A DNA stretch of 64,000 nt, taken from NCBI GenBank assembly GCA_017303675.1, contig JAFLBX010000001.1:1065970-1129969 (forward strand). The letters run 5' to 3'. Each line of letters starts with the position of its first letter. The stretch's first letter is position 1. The notes beneath the pieces were generated by a model that was given only the letters and a program-made list of their open reading frames with translations, was not told where the DNA came from and did no database searches. Both the position numbers and the translations under genes were made by a program. The stretch comes from Ignavibacteria bacterium (GTDB lineage: Bacteria > Bacteroidota > Ignavibacteria > Tepidaquicellales > OLB5). Shown piece by piece: positions 47,428 through 58,504 of this stretch.

Positions 47428-47660
47428 AAGTTTCTGCGTATTGAAAGCAAAATCTCCTGTATATTAAGCTGTAAATATCGTAAAATATAAAATGATAAGA
47501 AATTTAGAAATTGGGTAGTATGATGACAAAAAGCAGCAGGACAGAAAAATTGAGAAATTTCATTAACTTTAATATTAAGACATATATCATTATTATTGTA
47601 TAACAGTTCTTTGTAATACTCCGTTTTTAAAGACGGATATTGTTTTCGGTTCACTTATTT

Positions 47661-47835
47661 AAACAGTGAATAATAGGGAATCAGGTGAATTATACTATAG
47701 TTAATGAATAATCCTGAGCTGTCCCCGCAACTGTAATAAAGAAGACCGGTTATGTTTTTGTCACTGTCAAATAAAACTGACGGGAAGACTTTACCGGAAA
47801 TTGCTTTTAAGCCAGGAGACCTGCCGGAAATACTT
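47661..47835 (+). promoter_or_regulatory. Cobalamin riboswitch aptamer
   Basis: The conserved blocks of the RF00174 class appear in order: AGGGAATCAGGTGAA (47676-47690), the closing CCTGAGCTGTCCCCGCAACT (47713-47732), CACTG with CGGGAAG further on (47762-47787) and the B12 box AAGCCAGGAGACCTGCC (47809-47825). It binds adenosyl- or other cobalamins and should lower expression of the downstream B12 operon when B12 is plentiful. The upstream 47428-47660 holds no gene that I can support. Confidence 0.95.
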
Positions 47836-47883
47836 TTTAATGATCTTCGAGGGTAAAGATTACATGTTATTAAAATAAACGGG

Positions 47884-47996
47884 ACTCCCTGTTTCTATAT
47901 GACAATGTATATTTTTTATTCGTTTGGTCATTTAGGTACAGGGAGTTGTTATTTATAATCAACCAATTTTAATAACAAAACTTTTTTCATCGGGAG
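47884..47996 (+). promoter_or_regulatory. Putative expression platform of the cobalamin riboswitch
   Basis: ACTCCCTGT (47884-47892) can pair with ACAGGGAGT (47938-47946) or, through CTCCC, with the Shine-Dalgarno GGGAG at 47992-47996 that precedes the ATG at 48002. No poly-T follows, so translational control is more likely than termination. Confidence 0.5.
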
Positions 47997-48001
47997 AAAA
48001 T

Positions 48002-49081
48002 ATGAAAAAGTTAACTTCTGCTTTACTTCTGTTTATCACTTCGTTTTTTATTTTAACATCACTCAACGGCTGCGGCGATGAGGATATTGTAAACAATAAT
48101 CCTGTTACTTCAACAAAAGGCGTATTTGTTCTCTATGAAGGTGCATTCGGCCAGCCGCAATCCTATGATTATGCGTTTATTGATATTTCAAGTGATTCTG
48201 TATATTCTAATGTTTATCAAAATTCAAACGGGGGCTCAGCTTTAAATTCATTCCCGAACGGTATGGTTCTTTCAGGTAATGAATTATTTATCGCAGCTCA
48301 GGGTACTTTCGGCCAGCCGGGCTCTATGTACAAAATAAACTCTTCAAATAACCAGCTTATTACATCTGCGCCAAGTATAGGCAACAACCCCTATAATTTT
48401 GCTTTCGCAAACGGTAATATTTATATCACAAATACAGGAAGTGATTATGTTAAAGTAACTGATATGAACTTTGGCACAGTTATTGATTCACTCTCTGTAG
48501 GCTTTAATCCCGGGGATATACTGTTTGCAGGCGGAAATGTTTTTGTGGGCAAGCAATCTTTTACTTTTGAAAATTCACTAGCAGTAATCAATTCATCCAA
48601 CCAGGTTAGCAAATTATTTTTTCAGGGACCGCCCGTATCTATAGCTTTAAATACAGGCAAAATATTCGTTTCGACTTTTGGATACAAAAAACTGTTTGTT
48701 GTTGATGCCGCTTCAGCACAGATTGTTGATTCAATCAGTATGCCTGTAACACAGGCAGGTATAGGCTACCTTGCATCAGGAAGCGCAAATACCATGTATG
48801 TACTTGGGACTGATACTGCATTTCAGTACATGGAAGGAAAAAGTATATATAAAGTTGATCTTGTGAATAAAACCATAGACCCCGGTTTTAATGTTTCAGT
48901 TACAGGCACAGATGTAATTTACGGTATAGATTATGATGCCGTTGAAAACAAGATTTACATTGCAATTTCAAAAGGCAATAATAACGGTGAAGTAAGAGTA
49001 TATGATACTTCAGGCACATTATATAAATCATATCCTGATATAGGGGGCAAGTATCCAAGGAGATTTGCATTCAAGCATTAA
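48002..49081 (+). CDS. BtuG-like surface lipoprotein, beta-propeller (DUF5074/YncE-like)
   Basis: 359 residues. The signal peptide ends in SLNGC (Cys24), followed by the acidic GDED that in Bacteroidota favours export to the cell surface. The body is a seven-bladed propeller of the YncE type: VFVLYEGAFGQPQS, NGMVLSGNELFIAAQGTFGQ, PYNFAFANGNIYITNTGSDYVKVTD, GDILFAGGNVFVGKQSF, VSIALNTGKIFVSTFGYKKLFVVD. In Bacteroides, BtuG proteins with this fold capture B12 at the surface and sit on BtuB. Here the gene is directly controlled by the cobalamin riboswitch, and its stop overlaps the BtuB-like start (TAATG). Identity with BtuG is inferred from fold and context. Confidence 0.82.
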   Translation: MKKLTSALLLFITSFFILTSLNGCGDEDIVNNNPVTSTKGVFVLYEGAFGQPQSYDYAFIDISSDSVYSNVYQNSNGGSALNSFPNGMVLSGNELFIAAQGTFGQPGSMYKINSSNNQLITSAPSIGNNPYNFAFANGNIYITNTGSDYVKVTDMNFGTVIDSLSVGFNPGDILFAGGNVFVGKQSFTFENSLAVINSSNQVSKLFFQGPPVSIALNTGKIFVSTFGYKKLFVVDAASAQIVDSISMPVTQAGIGYLASGSANTMYVLGTDTAFQYMEGKSIYKVDLVNKTIDPGFNVSVTGTDVIYGIDYDAVENKIYIAISKGNNNGEVRVYDTSGTLYKSYPDIGGKYPRRFAFKH

Positions 49082-51069
49082 TGATTAAAAATATAGTAAT
49101 ACTATTTATATTAATCATCGTTATTCATGCCCGGGAGATAATTGCTTCGGGGCAGGATAGCGTTGTGACTGATGAAATTGTGGTTGAATCAAACCGCCTG
49201 AAGATGAAAAATTCAGAAGCGCCGAATAAGATACAGGTCATTGATAATGAATTACTTAAAAGGCTAAACGGCTCCCGCCTGCCCGATGCATTAAGCTTAA
49301 GTGATGCGGTGTTTATCAAGGATTACGGGTTTAATTCAGGTACTAAAACAATTTCACTCAACGCAACGCAAAGCGAGCATACTTTGGTGCTGATAGACGG
49401 CATCAGGCTTAACAGCCGGCAGAATGCGCAGTATGACCTTTCTTTGTTCGATCTTGAAGATATTGAACGCATTGAAATATCCAAGGGCGGTTCATCAGCT
49501 CTCTACGGCAGCGATGCAATTGGCGGTGTGATAAATATAATAACTTCCCGAGGTTCTAAAAAACCGTTCAGTTTGAATTTTAAAGGTCAGTTGGGTTCAT
49601 ACGGCTACAGGAAGTTTTATGTTAACATTACTCAAAGCTCTGATCTGGGTTCAGGGCAAAGACTTTCATATAATGCTTCTGTAACTGATGAAAGGGCTGC
49701 CAATGAGTTTAAGTTCAATTTTAAAAACGGACTCAACATTACTGAATATGAAAGAGAGAACTCTGATTTTAATTCACAATCAGTGAAATGCGATGTTAAG
49801 TATACTAATAGTGATAAAATGACTCTGAAGTATTTCGCGAAGTATTCATCGTTTGAGCGCGGAGTGCCCGGAGTGTTTTTGGGTTACTCAACCGGAACCG
49901 CAAGGCAGGAAGATAATATTGCTATGACAGGCTTTTTGTTTGATAGAAAAATATCAAAAAAAATATATTCCAAAAGCGGAATAAATTACCAGTACCAGCT
50001 GCAGAAGTATTATGATCCGGCAACATATAATCTAACTGCTGTAATTAACAGTTTTTACAAACTACACAGGCTGAGCTCGTTCAGCAATTTTAGCTTAGTG
50101 TTTAATCCAAAGCTCAGCCTGGAGTCCGGTATCGAGCTGAACCTTGATAATATGTCAAGCAATGAAACTGAAGAAGGAAAAGCCGCGCAGCTTGCAGTGT
50201 TTGCTGTATCAAAGTATGTTCTTAATTTATCAAACGGCGCAGTAATGACGATTTACCCCAGCCTGAGATATGATTATTATTCAAATATTTCTGATCATAA
50301 TGTATTAACAGGTAAATTCGGTATTAATATTAAACTGTTCGGAGAAACTGAATTTCATATTAAATCTTCATTAGGAAATAATTTCAGTGCGCCTACTTTT
50401 AATGAGCTGTACTGGAAGGATGTTGGCAATAAAGAGCTTAGACCAGAAAGATCACTTAGTTTTGATGCCGGCTTGTATTATAAATTCAATTTTGCAGGTG
50501 TAAATGAGCTGGAAGTTTCATACTATAATATTTTAACAAAAGACAGAATAGTATGGACCCCGGTTTCAGGTACGATCTGGCGGCCTGTAAATATACAGAA
50601 AGTACTTTCCGAAGGGTTAGATGCAGGCATTAGAAGTGAATTTAAGCTTAACAAATTTTTGCTGGCAAACATAGGTTTCAATTACAGTTTTGGAAGAACC
50701 ATTAAAAAAAGTGAGGATTTTCCGGGAGATCCAACATACGGCAAACAATTGATTTATCTGCCTAAAGAGATGGTAAAAGCATCTTTTATGATGAATTATT
50801 TGACTACAAGTAAATTATTAAAATATGTATCTTTTAGCCTGTTTTATAATTTTTCTACCAGAAGGTATACAAATTTTGAAAATACGCAGTTTATCCCAAG
50901 GTATGACGTTTTGGACGGAAATATAGGGGCTGGATTTAAATTTTCAGGGTTTGAAACAGGTGTAAGATTTATAGTAAATAATATTCTGAATGAAGATTAT
51001 TCTGTGCTGCCGGGATACCCGATGCCGCTCAGGAATTATAAAATAGAAATAAATATAAAATATCAATAA
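49081..51069 (+). CDS. btuB: BtuB-like TonB-dependent cobalamin receptor
   Basis: 662 residues with a signal peptide (about 1-22). A TonB box-like stretch TDEIVVESNR is followed by the plug domain (about 45-150, with NGSRLPDALSLSDAVFIKD, HTLVLIDGIRLNSRQNAQYDL, IEISKGGSSALYGSDAIGGVINI) and the barrel. It lacks a carboxypeptidase-like domain, as expected for BtuB. The specificity for B12 rests on the riboswitch upstream and the BtuG-like partner, with which it is translationally coupled (TAATG). The 16-base gap to the next membrane protein keeps the operon tight. Confidence 0.88.
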   Translation: MIKNIVILFILIIVIHAREIIASGQDSVVTDEIVVESNRLKMKNSEAPNKIQVIDNELLKRLNGSRLPDALSLSDAVFIKDYGFNSGTKTISLNATQSEHTLVLIDGIRLNSRQNAQYDLSLFDLEDIERIEISKGGSSALYGSDAIGGVINIITSRGSKKPFSLNFKGQLGSYGYRKFYVNITQSSDLGSGQRLSYNASVTDERAANEFKFNFKNGLNITEYERENSDFNSQSVKCDVKYTNSDKMTLKYFAKYSSFERGVPGVFLGYSTGTARQEDNIAMTGFLFDRKISKKIYSKSGINYQYQLQKYYDPATYNLTAVINSFYKLHRLSSFSNFSLVFNPKLSLESGIELNLDNMSSNETEEGKAAQLAVFAVSKYVLNLSNGAVMTIYPSLRYDYYSNISDHNVLTGKFGINIKLFGETEFHIKSSLGNNFSAPTFNELYWKDVGNKELRPERSLSFDAGLYYKFNFAGVNELEVSYYNILTKDRIVWTPVSGTIWRPVNIQKVLSEGLDAGIRSEFKLNKFLLANIGFNYSFGRTIKKSEDFPGDPTYGKQLIYLPKEMVKASFMMNYLTTSKLLKYVSFSLFYNFSTRRYTNFENTQFIPRYDVLDGNIGAGFKFSGFETGVRFIVNNILNEDYSVLPGYPMPLRNYKIEINIKYQ

Positions 51070-51085
51070 CAGGAGAAATTTTAAA

Positions 51086-51643
51086 ATGAATAACTCTAAA
51101 ATGACAAACTTTATTATTGCTGCAGTATTAATTCTCTTCGCGGCCTTTTCAAGGCTTATCCCGCATCCTATGAACTTTGCACCTGTTGCGGCTATTGCGC
51201 TTTTTGCCGCCGTATACATGGATAAAAAATACGCTTTCATATTACCAATAGCTGCAATGCTCTTAAGCGATATCTTCATCGGTTTTTATGCCGGTATTGA
51301 ATGGGTTTACGGTGCATTTGCTTTAGTTGCCTTTATAGGACTTTGGCTTAAGAAAAGGGTTGAAACAAAACAGGGACTTTCAAAAGCGGGATACATTGCA
51401 GGTACAACGCTTGTATCTTCAATAGTGTTTTTTATTGTAACCAATTTCGGGGTATGGCTCAGCGGAATGTTCTATGAAATGAATTTAAAAGGTTTAATAG
51501 AGTGCTATACAATGGCAATTCCGTTCTTCCGCAATTCACTTGGCGGAGACCTTTTTTATGTAACAGCAATGTTCGGTATATATGAATTGGTGACAAGATT
51601 TGCCGGCACCGCGGAATTAAAAGAAGCAAAGATCAGGAAATAA
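51086..51643 (+). CDS. Multi-pass membrane protein (DUF6580/ECF S-component-like), candidate B12 carrier
   Basis: 185 residues with about five or six membrane segments ([102 protein letters not shown]). The early [23 protein letters not shown] and [11 protein letters not shown] stretches recall DUF6580 proteins. Size and topology resemble the S components of ECF vitamin transporters. It lies between the BtuB-like receptor and metH under a B12 riboswitch, while no BtuCD or BtuF is present in the window. It is therefore a fair candidate for the inner-membrane cobalamin carrier. AGGAG lies upstream of the start. This function is inference from context. Confidence 0.78.
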
Positions 51644-51653
51644 ATCTCAATAT

Positions 51654-54600
51654 ATGATATCGCGCTTATTTGAAGAATTAAAGAAACGAATAGTATTCCT
51701 TGACGGTCCACGCGGAACGATGATACAGAAACGTATGCTCAGCGAAGCTGATTTCAGGGGAGAAAGATTCAAAAACCATCCTTACGACCTGAAAGGAAAC
51801 AACGATATTTTAAATATCACACAGCAGAAGGTAATTTCTGAAATTTACGAAGAATATCTTGATGCAGGTAGTGATATCGTCGGGACAAATACGTTCAATT
51901 CCACTTCAATATCACAGGGCGACTATCATACAGAAGATTATGTTTATGAAATAAATTTTGAATCAGCAAAGCTGGCAAGAATTGCCGCTGATAAATTTAC
52001 AGCTAAAACACCGGATAAACCCCGCTTTGTTGCGGGCGCTATCGGTCCAATGAATAAAACCCTTTCACTCTCACCGGATGTAAACGATCCCGGCTTCAGA
52101 GCAGTAACGTTTGACCAGATCAGGGAATCATACCTTGAGCAGGTAAGAGGATTAATTGATGGCGGCGTAGATATTCTGCTGGTTGAAACAGTGTTTGATA
52201 CCCTTAACTGCAAAGCGGCGCTGTTTGCAATAAATGAGTATTTCGATAAGATAGGCAGGAAACTGCCTGTTATGGTATCAGGTACCATTACAGATCTTAG
52301 CGGCAGAACACTTTCGGGTCAAACCGTTGAAGCGTTCTGGAATTCTATTAGTCATGCGGGCTTAATGAGTGTGGGCCTAAACTGCTCGCTTGGGGCAAAG
52401 GAAATGCGTCCTTATATAGAGGAGCTATCTGAGAAGGCAAATGTTTACTTAAGCGCATATCCCAATGCAGGATTGCCAAATGAATTTGGCGAGTACGATG
52501 AGCTTCCCAAAGAAACAGCGGAGCTTTTGCTGGATTTTGCGAAAAGCGGATTTTTGAATCTCGTTGGCGGCTGCTGCGGAACAACACCTGATCATATCAG
52601 ACAAATCACCACTTTATTAAAAGATATTCCTCCCAGGAAAATTCCTGAGATACATCCATATTTAAGGCTTAGCGGACTTGAAGCGCTGAACGTTACACCG
52701 CAGACAAATTTTGTAAATATAGGTGAGCGTACCAACATAACAGGCTCGGCTAAATTCGCAAAGCTTATACGCGAAGAAAATTACGAGGAAGCTTTAAGTG
52801 TAGCCCTGCAGCAGGTTGAAAGCGGCGCGCAGGTCATAGATATCAACATGGATGAAGGTATGATAGACGGCGTAGCAGCAATGGAAAAATTCCTGAAGCT
52901 TGTTGCCGTGGAGCCTGATATAGCAAAAGTACCTGTAATGCTTGATTCATCCAAATGGGAGATCATCGAAGCAGGCTTAAAATGCCTGCAGGGCAAAGGT
53001 ATAGTAAACTCGATAAGCTTAAAAGAAGGCGAAGCAAAGTTCATAGAGCATGCCCGTAAAGTAAAGCTCTACGGCGCTGCTGTAATAATAATGGCTTTTG
53101 ATGAGAACGGGCAGGCAGATAGCTACGAAAGAAGAATTGCCATCTGCAAAAGATGTTATGATATATTGACCAAACAGGTTGGATTTCCGCCGCAGGATAT
53201 TATTTTTGATCCAAACATACTCACTGTTGCAACGGGAATTGACGAGCATAATAATTACGCTGTTGATTACATCAACGCGACGCGATGGATAAAGGAAAAC
53301 CTTCCTCTTGCGAAGGTTAGCGGGGGAGTAAGCAATATTTCGTTTTCATTCCGCGGCAACAATGTTGTAAGAGAAGCGATGCACTCGGCTTTTCTTTATC
53401 ATGCTATTAAAGCGGGAATGGATATGGGAATTGTAAACGCCGGTATGATAGAAGTGTATGATGAAATTCCCAAAGACCTGCTTGAAAAAGTTGAAGATGT
53501 TCTGCTTAACCGAAAAGCAGATGCTACTGAAAGGCTTGTTGAATTTGCTGAATCAGTAAAGGCAAAAGGGAAAGTAATTGAACAGGATAACAATTGGCGG
53601 GAGCAGCCTGTTGAAGAACGGTTAAAACATGCGTTAATTAAAGGTATCACAGAATATATTGAAGCAGATACCGAAGAAGCGCGCCAAAAATACCCTGCAC
53701 CTCTTGATGTTATTGAAGGTCCGCTGATGGATGGTATGAATGTTGTCGGCGATCTTTTCGGTTCGGGCAAGATGTTCCTTCCGCAGGTTGTTAAAAGCGC
53801 GAGGGTAATGAAAAAATCTGTGGCATACTTAACTCCGTATATCGAAGCGGCTAAAGCCGCAGGCGCATCAAGCATCAATGGCAGGATACTGCTTGCCACT
53901 GTAAAAGGCGATGTGCATGATATAGGTAAAAATATTGTAGGCGTTGTGCTTGGATGCAATAACTATGAAGTGATAGACCTGGGTGTGATGGTTCCCGCAG
54001 AAAAAATTCTGCAGACGGCAAAAGAAAAGAATGTTGATATTATAGGGCTGAGCGGATTAATTACGCCATCACTTGATGAAATGGTGCATGTTGCCAAAGA
54101 AATGGAGCGCCAGGGATTTTCAGTTCCGCTGTTGATTGGCGGCGCAACTACTTCCAAGATACACGCTGCTGTTAAGATAGCGCCCAATTATTCCAATCCA
54201 ACCGTTCACGTGCTTGATGCATCAAGGAGTGTAACTGTAGCCGGAAGCCTGATGAACAAAGATAACCGCGATGGTTTTATAGGCTCAGTTAAGCAGGAAT
54301 ATGAGCGCATGAGGATGTCACACAAAGGCAGAAAAGATAATAAAAAATTCCTGAAAATTAATGAAGCCCGTGAAAAAGGATTAAAGATCAACTGGGCTGA
54401 AACAAAGATCACTAAGCCGGCATTTACAGGCAATAAAGTATTTGAAGATTTTCCATTGGATAAGATCCGCGAAAAAATTGACTGGACCCCGTTCTTTTTA
54501 ACATGGGAGCTGAAAGGCAAATACCCTACAATTTTTGATGATAAAAATTACGGTAGTGAAGCGAAGAAAATCTATGATGATGCAAACAAGCTTCTTGATG

Positions 54601-55349
54601 ATATCATAGCAAACAAATGGCTGAAAGCTAAAGCAGTGATAGGGCTATATCCCGCTAATTCAGTTGGGGATGATATTGAGCTTTATTTAAACGATAAGAG
54701 AAAAGAAATTGCGGCTACTCTGCACACCCTGAGACAGCAGGCGGAAAAAACGAATAACGATCCGTATTATGCTTTAAGTGACCTTGTAGCGCCTAAAGAA
54801 TCCGGCGCAAATGATTACATTGGCTGCTTTGCGGTAACAACGGGCATTGGAATTGAAGCAGTGCTCGAAAAATTCGCGAAAGAGCACGATGATTACAACA
54901 GCATTATGACCAAGGCTATTGCCGACAGGCTAGCCGAAGCATTCGCTGAGCTGATGCATGAGCTGGTGCGAAAGGAATTCTGGGGTTATGCCAAGAATGA
55001 AAACCTGAGCATTGAAGATATTATTGCCGAAAAGTATCACGGCATCAGGCCTGCACCGGGTTACCCCGCACAGCCTGACCACACAGAAAAACAATTGATA
55101 TTTGACCTGCTTGAAGCCGAAGAGAAAACGGGTATTAAACTCACCGAAAGCTTCGCTATGTATCCGGCATCATCAGTCAGCGGGTTGTATTTTTCGCATC
55201 CGGAGTCAAAATACTTTAATGTGGGCAAAATATCCCGTGACCAGATCGAAGAATACGCCCAAAGGAAAAATATGCCTGTAGAAGAAATTGAAAGATGGCT
55301 GGCTCCGATATTGGGGTATGAGAGAACTGAAAAAGAATCAGTTGGATAA
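51654..55349 (+). CDS. metH: Cobalamin-dependent methionine synthase
   Basis: 1231 residues, the full four-module enzyme. The homocysteine domain has zinc Cys244 (GLNCSLGA) and Cys307-308 ([10 protein letters not shown]). The folate domain opens [14 protein letters not shown]. The B12 domain has [13 protein letters not shown] with the axial His755. The C-terminal reactivation domain has [12 protein letters not shown], the S-adenosylmethionine site. It methylates homocysteine from methyl-tetrahydrofolate in the cytosol. The gene is ten bases after the candidate B12 carrier, and a Bfd-like [2Fe-2S] protein follows after five bases. The complete activation domain means the enzyme needs an electron donor. 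Confidence 0.97.
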
Positions 55350-56718: not shown

Positions 56719-57387
56719 ATGGATAAGAAGAAAGTCACACTGGAAGAAGCAAAAAAGGCAGGGGGCAAAAGGTACCGCGAAAAGGTACAGAAAGTGCTTG
56801 CTGAATACGAACAATTACCCGACGAAGAAAAACACCAGTCGCATTTATATTACGGATACGGCAAAGGCAAAACCACGGCAGCTATGGGGCTCGCTTTCCG
56901 CGCCCTTGGCGCAGGTATGAGAGTTGCAATTGTTGAGTTCGATAAAGGCCACGACCAGGCCAAAGAGCATTACTTTGAGCGCAGGATATTCTTTAAGCTC
57001 AAAGAGCTGGGCTATCCCGTTGAGCTCCACTCAAGCGGCTGCGAAAGAATGAATGAGGACGGTACTTTCCGTTTTAAGAATGCCGAAGAGGATTTTGAGG
57101 AGGCAAAGAGGGCATTAGCCATTGTTCGTGACCTGATAGTAAACGGTAAACAAAATGTACTTGTGCTTGATGAGTTTGTAGCTGCGGCAAATTATCATTT
57201 AATAGAAGAAAAGGATGTATTTGATATACTTGAGCTGTATGATAAAAACCGAAGGTTTGAGCTTGTTATGACCGGGCACAAGTTATTTGAGGGGCTTGAA
57301 GAAAGGGTTGATCTTATCACAGAAAACAGGAAAGTAAAACATTATTTTGATAAAGGAATACAGGCGAGAAAAGGAATAGAATACTAA
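56719..57387 (+). CDS. cobA: Cob(I)yrinic acid a,c-diamide adenosyltransferase (CobA/BtuR type)
   Basis: 222 residues. The P-loop is GYGKGKTT (residues 46-53), followed by RALGAGMRVAIVEFDKG, and the Walker B-like VLVLDEFVAAANY. The end, ELVMTGHKLFEGLEERVDLITE, is typical. This enzyme attaches the 5'-deoxyadenosyl group to cob(I)alamin and cobinamide, making coenzyme B12 after uptake. A basic N-terminal extension of about 40 residues precedes the domain, as in many CobA proteins. With no corrin-ring genes nearby, the operon seems to salvage, not build, B12. Confidence 0.93.
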   Translation: MDKKKVTLEEAKKAGGKRYREKVQKVLAEYEQLPDEEKHQSHLYYGYGKGKTTAAMGLAFRALGAGMRVAIVEFDKGHDQAKEHYFERRIFFKLKELGYPVELHSSGCERMNEDGTFRFKNAEEDFEEAKRALAIVRDLIVNGKQNVLVLDEFVAAANYHLIEEKDVFDILELYDKNRRFELVMTGHKLFEGLEERVDLITENRKVKHYFDKGIQARKGIEY

Positions 57388-57420: not shown

Positions 57421-57451
57421 AAATCAAGTGAATAACATAAATCTTATCATT

Positions 57452-58504
57452 ATGAAAATACATAAATTCACACTCATTTTAACAATTTTAATCCTTTCGA
57501 TAATATTTAATGCATGTAATGATTCAAACGGTCCTACTGTAAATAATAATGGAGGAAACTCCTTAGCAGGGGCGTATATACTTTATTACACTCCTGCCAC
57601 AAGTACAGATTATGCATATTATGATGCCGTTAAGGATTCAGTAACGGATTTTGTGTTTACTTCAAATAATCCGGGAGTGAAGCTTAATGTAAATCCGGGT
57701 GAAATGAAGATGAATTCAGACAGGAAGCTTTATTTCACAACGCTTGGCATACCGGGAAACAACGGTACGATATATAAGATAGATCCATTCAGCAATAATA
57801 TTGAAGATTCGTTAAGATTTGGTAATTCTCCTGATGGATTTGCTATCAATAACAACAGGATAGTCGTAGGTAATTCCGGAAGTACAAATGTTACTGTGCT
57901 TGATCTGGATTTTAATATTATAAAAGATACAATTGAAGTAGGCAGCAATCCCGCAAATGTTATATACGGCTTCAATAAATACATTGTTACCCGGAATACA
58001 TTAAATAATGAAAGATCTGCAGCATTTGTAGATGAAATAAATTACTCAGTAACTAAATTATTCTATCCGGCAGTGCCTTCAAACGCAATATACAATGTAA
58101 ACGGAATTTTCATTTCAACAAATAATAACAGGAATATTTACAGAGTAGATCCAGGTTCACTTACCACCACAGATTCTTTTCCTTTACCCACAATGTTTGC
58201 CGGAATCAGTGAACTTATATTAAAAACCCAAAACAGCTTTTATTCAATTGCCGATAACAGGGAAATTTGGCTTGTAAAGGCAGAATCAGGAACGCTGACT
58301 TTTACAAGGATCATGGAAGCGGTATCGGATCTATTTATCAGAACTGCCGCTTTTGAATCTGCTGCAAATGAGTTATATTTTACCAGTGAATCATTTACAG
58401 GAGGTAACACTCTTTATATTTTAAACGGAGAAAGCGGTATTGTAAAGCGGATAAAATCTTTCGCAGGCAATAACACCAAAAGTATTATCTTCAGGTATTT
58501 TTAG
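57452..58504 (+). CDS. Second BtuG-like beta-propeller lipoprotein
   Basis: 350 residues from the ATG at 57452, preferred over a GTG at 57428 because it places a lipoprotein signal (MKIHKFTLILTILILSII-FNAC) correctly at the start. The propeller blades match the first BtuG-like gene: LAGAYILYYTPATSTDYAYYD, GNNGTIYKIDPFSNNIEDSL, GFAINNNRIVVGNSGSTNVTVLD, ANVIYGFNKYIVTRNTL, and so on. It lacks the acidic surface-export cluster after Cys. It closes the B12 run; its last bases overlap the convergent PAP2 gene by 14. A role in B12 binding is plausible but it could capture another corrinoid. Confidence 0.78.
   Translation: MKIHKFTLILTILILSIIFNACNDSNGPTVNNNGGNSLAGAYILYYTPATSTDYAYYDAVKDSVTDFVFTSNNPGVKLNVNPGEMKMNSDRKLYFTTLGIPGNNGTIYKIDPFSNNIEDSLRFGNSPDGFAINNNRIVVGNSGSTNVTVLDLDFNIIKDTIEVGSNPANVIYGFNKYIVTRNTLNNERSAAFVDEINYSVTKLFYPAVPSNAIYNVNGIFISTNNNRNIYRVDPGSLTTTDSFPLPTMFAGISELILKTQNSFYSIADNREIWLVKAESGTLTFTRIMEAVSDLFIRTAAFESAANELYFTSESFTGGNTLYILNGESGIVKRIKSFAGNNTKSIIFRYF

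Follow-up and report, generated by a model that had tools for sequence, protein, structure and literature searches.

How does vitamin B12 cross the inner membrane of a bacterium that has no BtuCDF importer? Many B12-dependent Gram-negative bacteria possess BtuB but not BtuCDF, and for most of them no inner-membrane carrier is known (PMC6072759). The question is raised again by a small gene between btuB and metH in the DNA analyzed here, a 64,000-nucleotide stretch of an Ignavibacteria genome (hereafter, the window). Its product belongs to the Pfam family DUF6580, and we consider it very likely that this protein is the inner-membrane B12 (cobalamin/corrinoid) carrier of the bacterium, working with neither BtuCDF nor an ECF module, like the solitary BtuM.

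Organization of the B12 operon

The gene is an intact open reading frame for 185 residues with an ATG start, which begins 16 bases past the btuB stop and is followed after 10 bases by metH (Table 1). The PF20221 (DUF6580) profile matched residues 6–171 of the protein with 176.7 bits (curated cut-off 27), making it a full-length member of the family, and a similarity search found the protein to be kept across several phyla. Because of this match and this conservation, the reading frame is not a chance one. To our knowledge, DUF6580 is a family without assigned function.

The initial annotation had described a 185-residue multi-pass protein between btuB and metH and a window without BtuCDF. Both statements agree with our results, as the frame is intact, the predicted model has six helices and no BtuCDF was found in the window. 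The protein had also been called undescribed, which holds within the open-access papers searched: none of them mentions DUF6580 or PF20221 (subscription journals or preprints may contain a description), and none describes the protein earlier as btuN or as a candidate cobalamin transporter. Similarly, no mention of this membrane protein was found in a paper on DUF71 and B12 salvage (PMC3541065).

All genes of the operon lie on the plus strand, in the order propeller lipoprotein, btuB-like receptor, DUF6580 gene and metH, and are headed by a cobalamin riboswitch which the initial annotation had overlooked. The lipoprotein has a lipobox-like LNGC close to its N-terminus and showed no match of weight among PDB sequences. 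The best NCBIfam match of the receptor was TIGR01779 (TonB-B12/BtuB) at E 9e-46, which is under the strict cut-off. Besides, a second propeller lipoprotein downstream of metH matched a YncE family protein, 8blw_B; the 8blw entry was used in a study of BtuB-BtuG (PMC10404256). The propeller-btuB-DUF6580-metH order is repeated in close Ignavibacteria relatives (L113–L123), as far as their contigs extend.

Table 1. B12-related features of the window (coordinates within the window).
Feature	Position	Strand	Supporting match
Cobalamin riboswitch (RF00174); no other found in the genome	47630..47842	+	Rfam 117.6 bits, E 7.6e-29
Beta-propeller lipoprotein, BtuG-like by position and architecture	48002..49081	+	Weak NCBIfam PQQ/YncE propeller matches
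btuB-like TonB-dependent outer-membrane receptor	49081..51069	+	TIGR01779 TonB-B12; Plug domain E 4.6e-24
DUF6580 inner-membrane protein, proposed S-component-type B12 carrier	51086..51643	+	PF20221 E 5.4e-52; AF2 pLDDT 95.3; BtuM Z 13.9
metH, B12-dependent methionine synthase	51654..55349	+	NF007024 2141 bits
ATP:corrinoid adenosyltransferase (BtuR/CobO type)	56719..57387	+	PF02572 E 9.8e-46
Second beta-propeller lipoprotein, BtuG-like	57428..58504	+	phmmer to 8blw_B, E 2.4e-4

B12 gene inventory of the genome

The genome (3.65 Mb, 2 contigs) is estimated to be 100% complete. The initial annotation had proposed to check whether it lacks btuCD, and the outcome was in favor of its reading: no match to a BtuC-type FecCD permease passed 1e-25, and no BtuF-type binding protein (Peripla_BP_2) was found in the genome. 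Its sole FecCD match (30.5 bits) was considered as a BtuC and rejected, since a reading of the sequence, rather than a family scan, places it among ABC-3-type (Zn/Mn) permeases. Neither was EcfT/CbiQ found in the genome at the Pfam level of detection. The annotation had left two ways for the protein to work, alone or with a shared ECF module encoded elsewhere; because EcfT is missing from the genome, the first is favored and the second is not. The corrin-ring enzyme CbiC was also not found in the genome, so that complete corrin-ring synthesis is missing. With btuB, BtuR and metH present but BtuC, BtuF and EcfT absent, another inner-membrane carrier is needed, and the single DUF6580 gene of the genome is the candidate that lies in the B12 operon.

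Predicted fold and comparison with BtuM and CbrT

An AlphaFold2 model of the protein, built with 81 sequences (mean pLDDT 95.3), consists of six helices. In Foldseek, BtuM with cyanocobalamin (E 0.01) and BtuM with hydroxycobalamin (E 0.04) took the first two ranks, each with probability 1.0, and other S components came next. VIA-align gave Z scores of 13.9 and 13.6 for BtuM; its best 20 rows were all S components (Z 8.4–13.9), and the first unrelated row had a Z of 6.7. The CbrT entry (6FNP) was not among the matches listed (50 fold rows), which carries no weight either way. By structure prediction, the protein has an S-component fold with BtuM as its best match, as the initial annotation had suspected from its likeness to ECF S components. 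Basic residues in the six-helix model are found in loops 2 and 4 and at the C-terminus, with none in loops 1, 3 and 5, and because of this confinement both ends of the protein are predicted to be cytoplasmic.

BtuM of Thiobacillus denitrificans (8ovv, 8c7p; PMC6072759) shares the six-helix fold (Z 13.9 over 160 residues, rmsd 3.1) and is also similar in size, in having btuB as a neighbor and in a host mostly without an ECF module. Like DUF6580, it occurs in Gram-negative bacteria without BtuCDF, but it is known mainly from Proteobacteria, whereas the DUF6580 proteins found here come mainly from Bacteroidota, Ignavibacteria and the Candidate Phyla Radiation (CPR). No BtuM chain was matched in the PDB sequence search by the single DUF6580 sequence or by either of two profiles, A1 (Bacteroidota-wide) and A3 (cross-phylum). 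In BtuM, Cys80 of loop 3 is invariant, ligates cobalt and is essential (PMC6072759). No conserved loop-3 cysteine is present in DUF6580: 7 of 81 sequences have any Cys at residues 62–80, in no shared column, and the window protein has none within these residues. Because the defining Cys80 of BtuM is missing from it, we file DUF6580 as a separate family. The BtuM pocket residues H28, D67, Y85 and R153 resemble H27, D62, Y75 and R149 of DUF6580 in spacing only, and we make no claim of correspondence. Residues (nearly) invariant across phyla in DUF6580 are R23, H27, N30, D62, Y75, N120, W124, Y130, G136 and F147; H27 was found in 60 of 81 sequences of the phylum set and in all 24 of the cross-phylum set, and position 140 in helix 6 (C140) holds Cys in 59 of the 81 sequences and Ser in 18. 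A role for C140 or H27 in ligating cobalt is no more than a guess.

The search of PDB sequences with the single protein and then with A1 gave no match at all. With A3 there was one match among 177,635 sequences, 6fnp_A (E 0.0015), from the B12-specific complex ECF-CbrT of Lactobacillus delbrueckii (PMC5997447). This match is marginal, covering chain residues 8–92 and only about residues 8–83, approximately half, of the DUF6580 protein; the pairwise hhalign probability against 6fnp_A was 86% with A3 and 55% with A1. CbrT depends on the ECF module, cannot transport when isolated from it (PMC5997447) and fails alone in E. coli, whereas DUF6580 hosts are mostly without EcfT, a feature of ECF-CbrT that is absent from the genome of the window protein. 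Because CbrT needs the ECF module and the BtuM cysteine has no counterpart in DUF6580, the fold by itself does not guarantee that the protein acts alone.

Complementarity with BtuC-type permeases

BtuCDF, an unrelated multi-subunit ABC transporter with the binding protein BtuF, does the job that we propose for DUF6580, and the two occupy almost complementary sets of genomes. Among 296 genomes spread over the phylum, each at least 90% complete, 118 had DUF6580 above the cut-off and 193 a strong FecCD permease: 100 had DUF6580 only, 175 FecCD only, 18 both and 3 neither (Fisher p 1e-55, a value to be read with the genomes not being independent). The same pattern was observed for the 140 genera (65 DUF6580 only, 63 FecCD only, 12 both, none with neither) and also within families. 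For example, in family f30 one genus (six genomes) had FecCD only and all 29 other sampled genomes had DUF6580; in family f3, one genome had FecCD only, three DUF6580 only and one both. DUF6580 and BtuC-type permeases are therefore nearly mutually exclusive in the phylum, and since FecCD also takes in siderophore permeases, genomes that truly have both DUF6580 and BtuC may be even fewer. DUF6580 very probably moves B12 over the inner membrane in many bacteria without the classical B12 pump.

Three genomes, G136, G256 and G280, lacked both DUF6580 and a strong FecCD permease; G136 nevertheless retains a cobalamin riboswitch. These genomes may use another carrier, or their assemblies may have gaps.

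Linkage to cobalamin riboswitches

We examined the surroundings of 81 DUF6580 genes from 74 genomes. A cobalamin riboswitch lay within 4.1 kb of 36 genes (14 family labels), on the same strand in 35 cases, whereas the riboswitch counts of the genomes would predict 0.23 genes. The commonest spacing, 2.0–2.5 kb, corresponds to one btuB gene, and in eight genomes of four families the riboswitch was located 60–173 bp directly upstream of DUF6580. The view of DUF6580 as a chance neighbor of btuB was rejected by these distances. Placed on a maximum-likelihood tree, riboswitch-linked genes require 11 label changes, at least 5 of them forced by well-supported branches, and the linkage is thus not limited to one clade.

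The remaining 45 genes had no riboswitch within 10 kb, and some members may therefore have another function. One large unlinked group sits in a conserved mutS/yceI/brkB neighborhood; its genomes, too, are mostly without FecCD. A diverged clade of family f23 (L075, L087, L091, L095, L099 and L110) has DUF6580 between phosphomannose-isomerase-like and RNase H genes, with no riboswitch nearby and no PH motif (His27 absent), and another substrate may apply to it.

Two other arrangements were observed. Five f10 genomes (L044, L056, L063, L069 and L039) have a single DUF6580 gene flanked by two same-strand cobalamin riboswitches, one 111–173 bp before and one 26–98 bp after it. In L070, L084, L086, L098, L109 and others, the riboswitch-linked DUF6580 gene is followed by a Peripla_BP_2 protein (~312 aa, no visible signal peptide), and at several of these loci also by a DUF71/Diphthami_syn_2 protein; their genomes are mostly without a strong BtuC-type permease.

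DUF6580 in other phyla

Similarity to the Ignavibacteria proteins led to 17 CPR genomes, for which we examined ~5 kb on each side of DUF6580 (less at contig ends). nrdJ was present in 10 of these 17 loci, and 15 of the 17 genomes encoded NrdJ above the cut-off. A cobalamin adenosyltransferase (Cob_adeno_trans or BtuR) was found in 8 loci and a riboswitch in 7 (AdoCbl-II in 6, cobalamin in 1). Levybacteria-type loci had the recurring order nrdR-nrdJ-riboswitch-DUF6580-PduO-type adenosyltransferase. The neighborhood of CPR members is similar to that of cbrT, a proven B12 S component, which in L. delbrueckii lies in an nrdJ-cbrS-cbrT-pduO cluster (PMC5997447). Outside CPR, two gammaproteobacterial genomes had a riboswitch, a TonB receptor (btuB), DUF6580 and a PduO-type gene in this order, and one acidobacterium had a riboswitch, a TonB receptor and DUF6580.

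The six CPR loci in which an AdoCbl-II riboswitch (RF01689) lies upstream of DUF6580 are L139, L140, L145, L152, L175 and L191; nrdJ occurs in five of them.

Proposed role and alternatives

In the pathway that we propose, the BtuG-like propeller lipoprotein would capture B12 and, with BtuB, bring it into the periplasm. The DUF6580 carrier would bind it in a periplasm-facing pocket (loops 1, 3 and 5) and release it inside, where the adenosyltransferase (BtuR) and MetH would use it; trapping of B12 by intracellular corrinoid enzymes is a possible driving force. The mechanism of solitary S components has been called unclear (PMC11109136). That the protein binds and moves B12 is a strong prediction, drawn from a predicted fold and an observed genomic context, and the proposal of the initial annotation that it is a B12 carrier is well supported.

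A B12-binding S component which needs a separate energizing module, either of ECF type or another ABC ATPase/T subunit encoded elsewhere, would also agree with the S-component fold and with the distant relation in sequence to the ECF-dependent CbrT. We regard such a dependence as unlikely, as EcfT/CbiQ was not found in the genome at the Pfam level (a diverged T subunit could escape) and EcfT occurred in just 8 of the 74 sampled DUF6580 genomes and in 2 of the 17 CPR genomes. It is also quite improbable that the substrate is related to B12 but different from it (a precursor such as cobinamide, a lower-ligand base, or cobalt), or that B12 transport is confined to some of the subfamilies. S components whose specificity is known bind many different vitamins, several DUF6580 clades are far from riboswitches and the phosphomannose-isomerase/RNase H clade has no His27, all of which would fit a different or mixed specificity. 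However, a genome with MetH and without CbiC needs an external corrinoid, DUF6580 is complementary to BtuC-type permeases, and its nearest solved relatives by fold (BtuM) and by sequence (CbrT) both bind B12.

The association with operons and riboswitches, taken alone, would fit accessory proteins too, and the DUF6580 protein could then be a B12-regulated membrane protein with no transport role, B12 being carried by another permease such as an SbmA/BacA-type importer. An S-component fold closest to BtuM and a near-perfect replacement pattern with respect to BtuC-type permeases make this very improbable. Our preferred reading remains that of an inner-membrane B12 carrier acting alone.

An S-component-type B12 carrier, possibly solitary, is of a kind already known; what is new, as far as the open-access literature shows, is DUF6580 as a family, how widely it occurs and its lack of the BtuM cysteine. 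In a broader proposal, which we think somewhat more probable than its opposite, DUF6580 proteins are widespread solitary, ATPase-free B12 importers that replace BtuCDF in much of Bacteroidota/Ignavibacteria, serve the B12-dependent ribonucleotide reductase of CPR and use a chemistry unlike that of the BtuM loop-3 cysteine. If DUF6580 is a B12 carrier, it fills most of the inner-membrane B12 gap of the phylum, suggests a route by which the minimal cells of CPR acquire the cofactor of their B12-dependent ribonucleotide reductase, and offers many natural variants for studying ATPase-free transport by S components.

One additional feature of the operon concerns its last gene. A B12 riboswitch normally turns expression off when B12 is plentiful, yet the B12-dependent metH ends the riboswitch operon (47630–55349) here, as it does in the close relatives L113–L123. 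A promoter of its own for metH, or an activating riboswitch, would explain this paradox.
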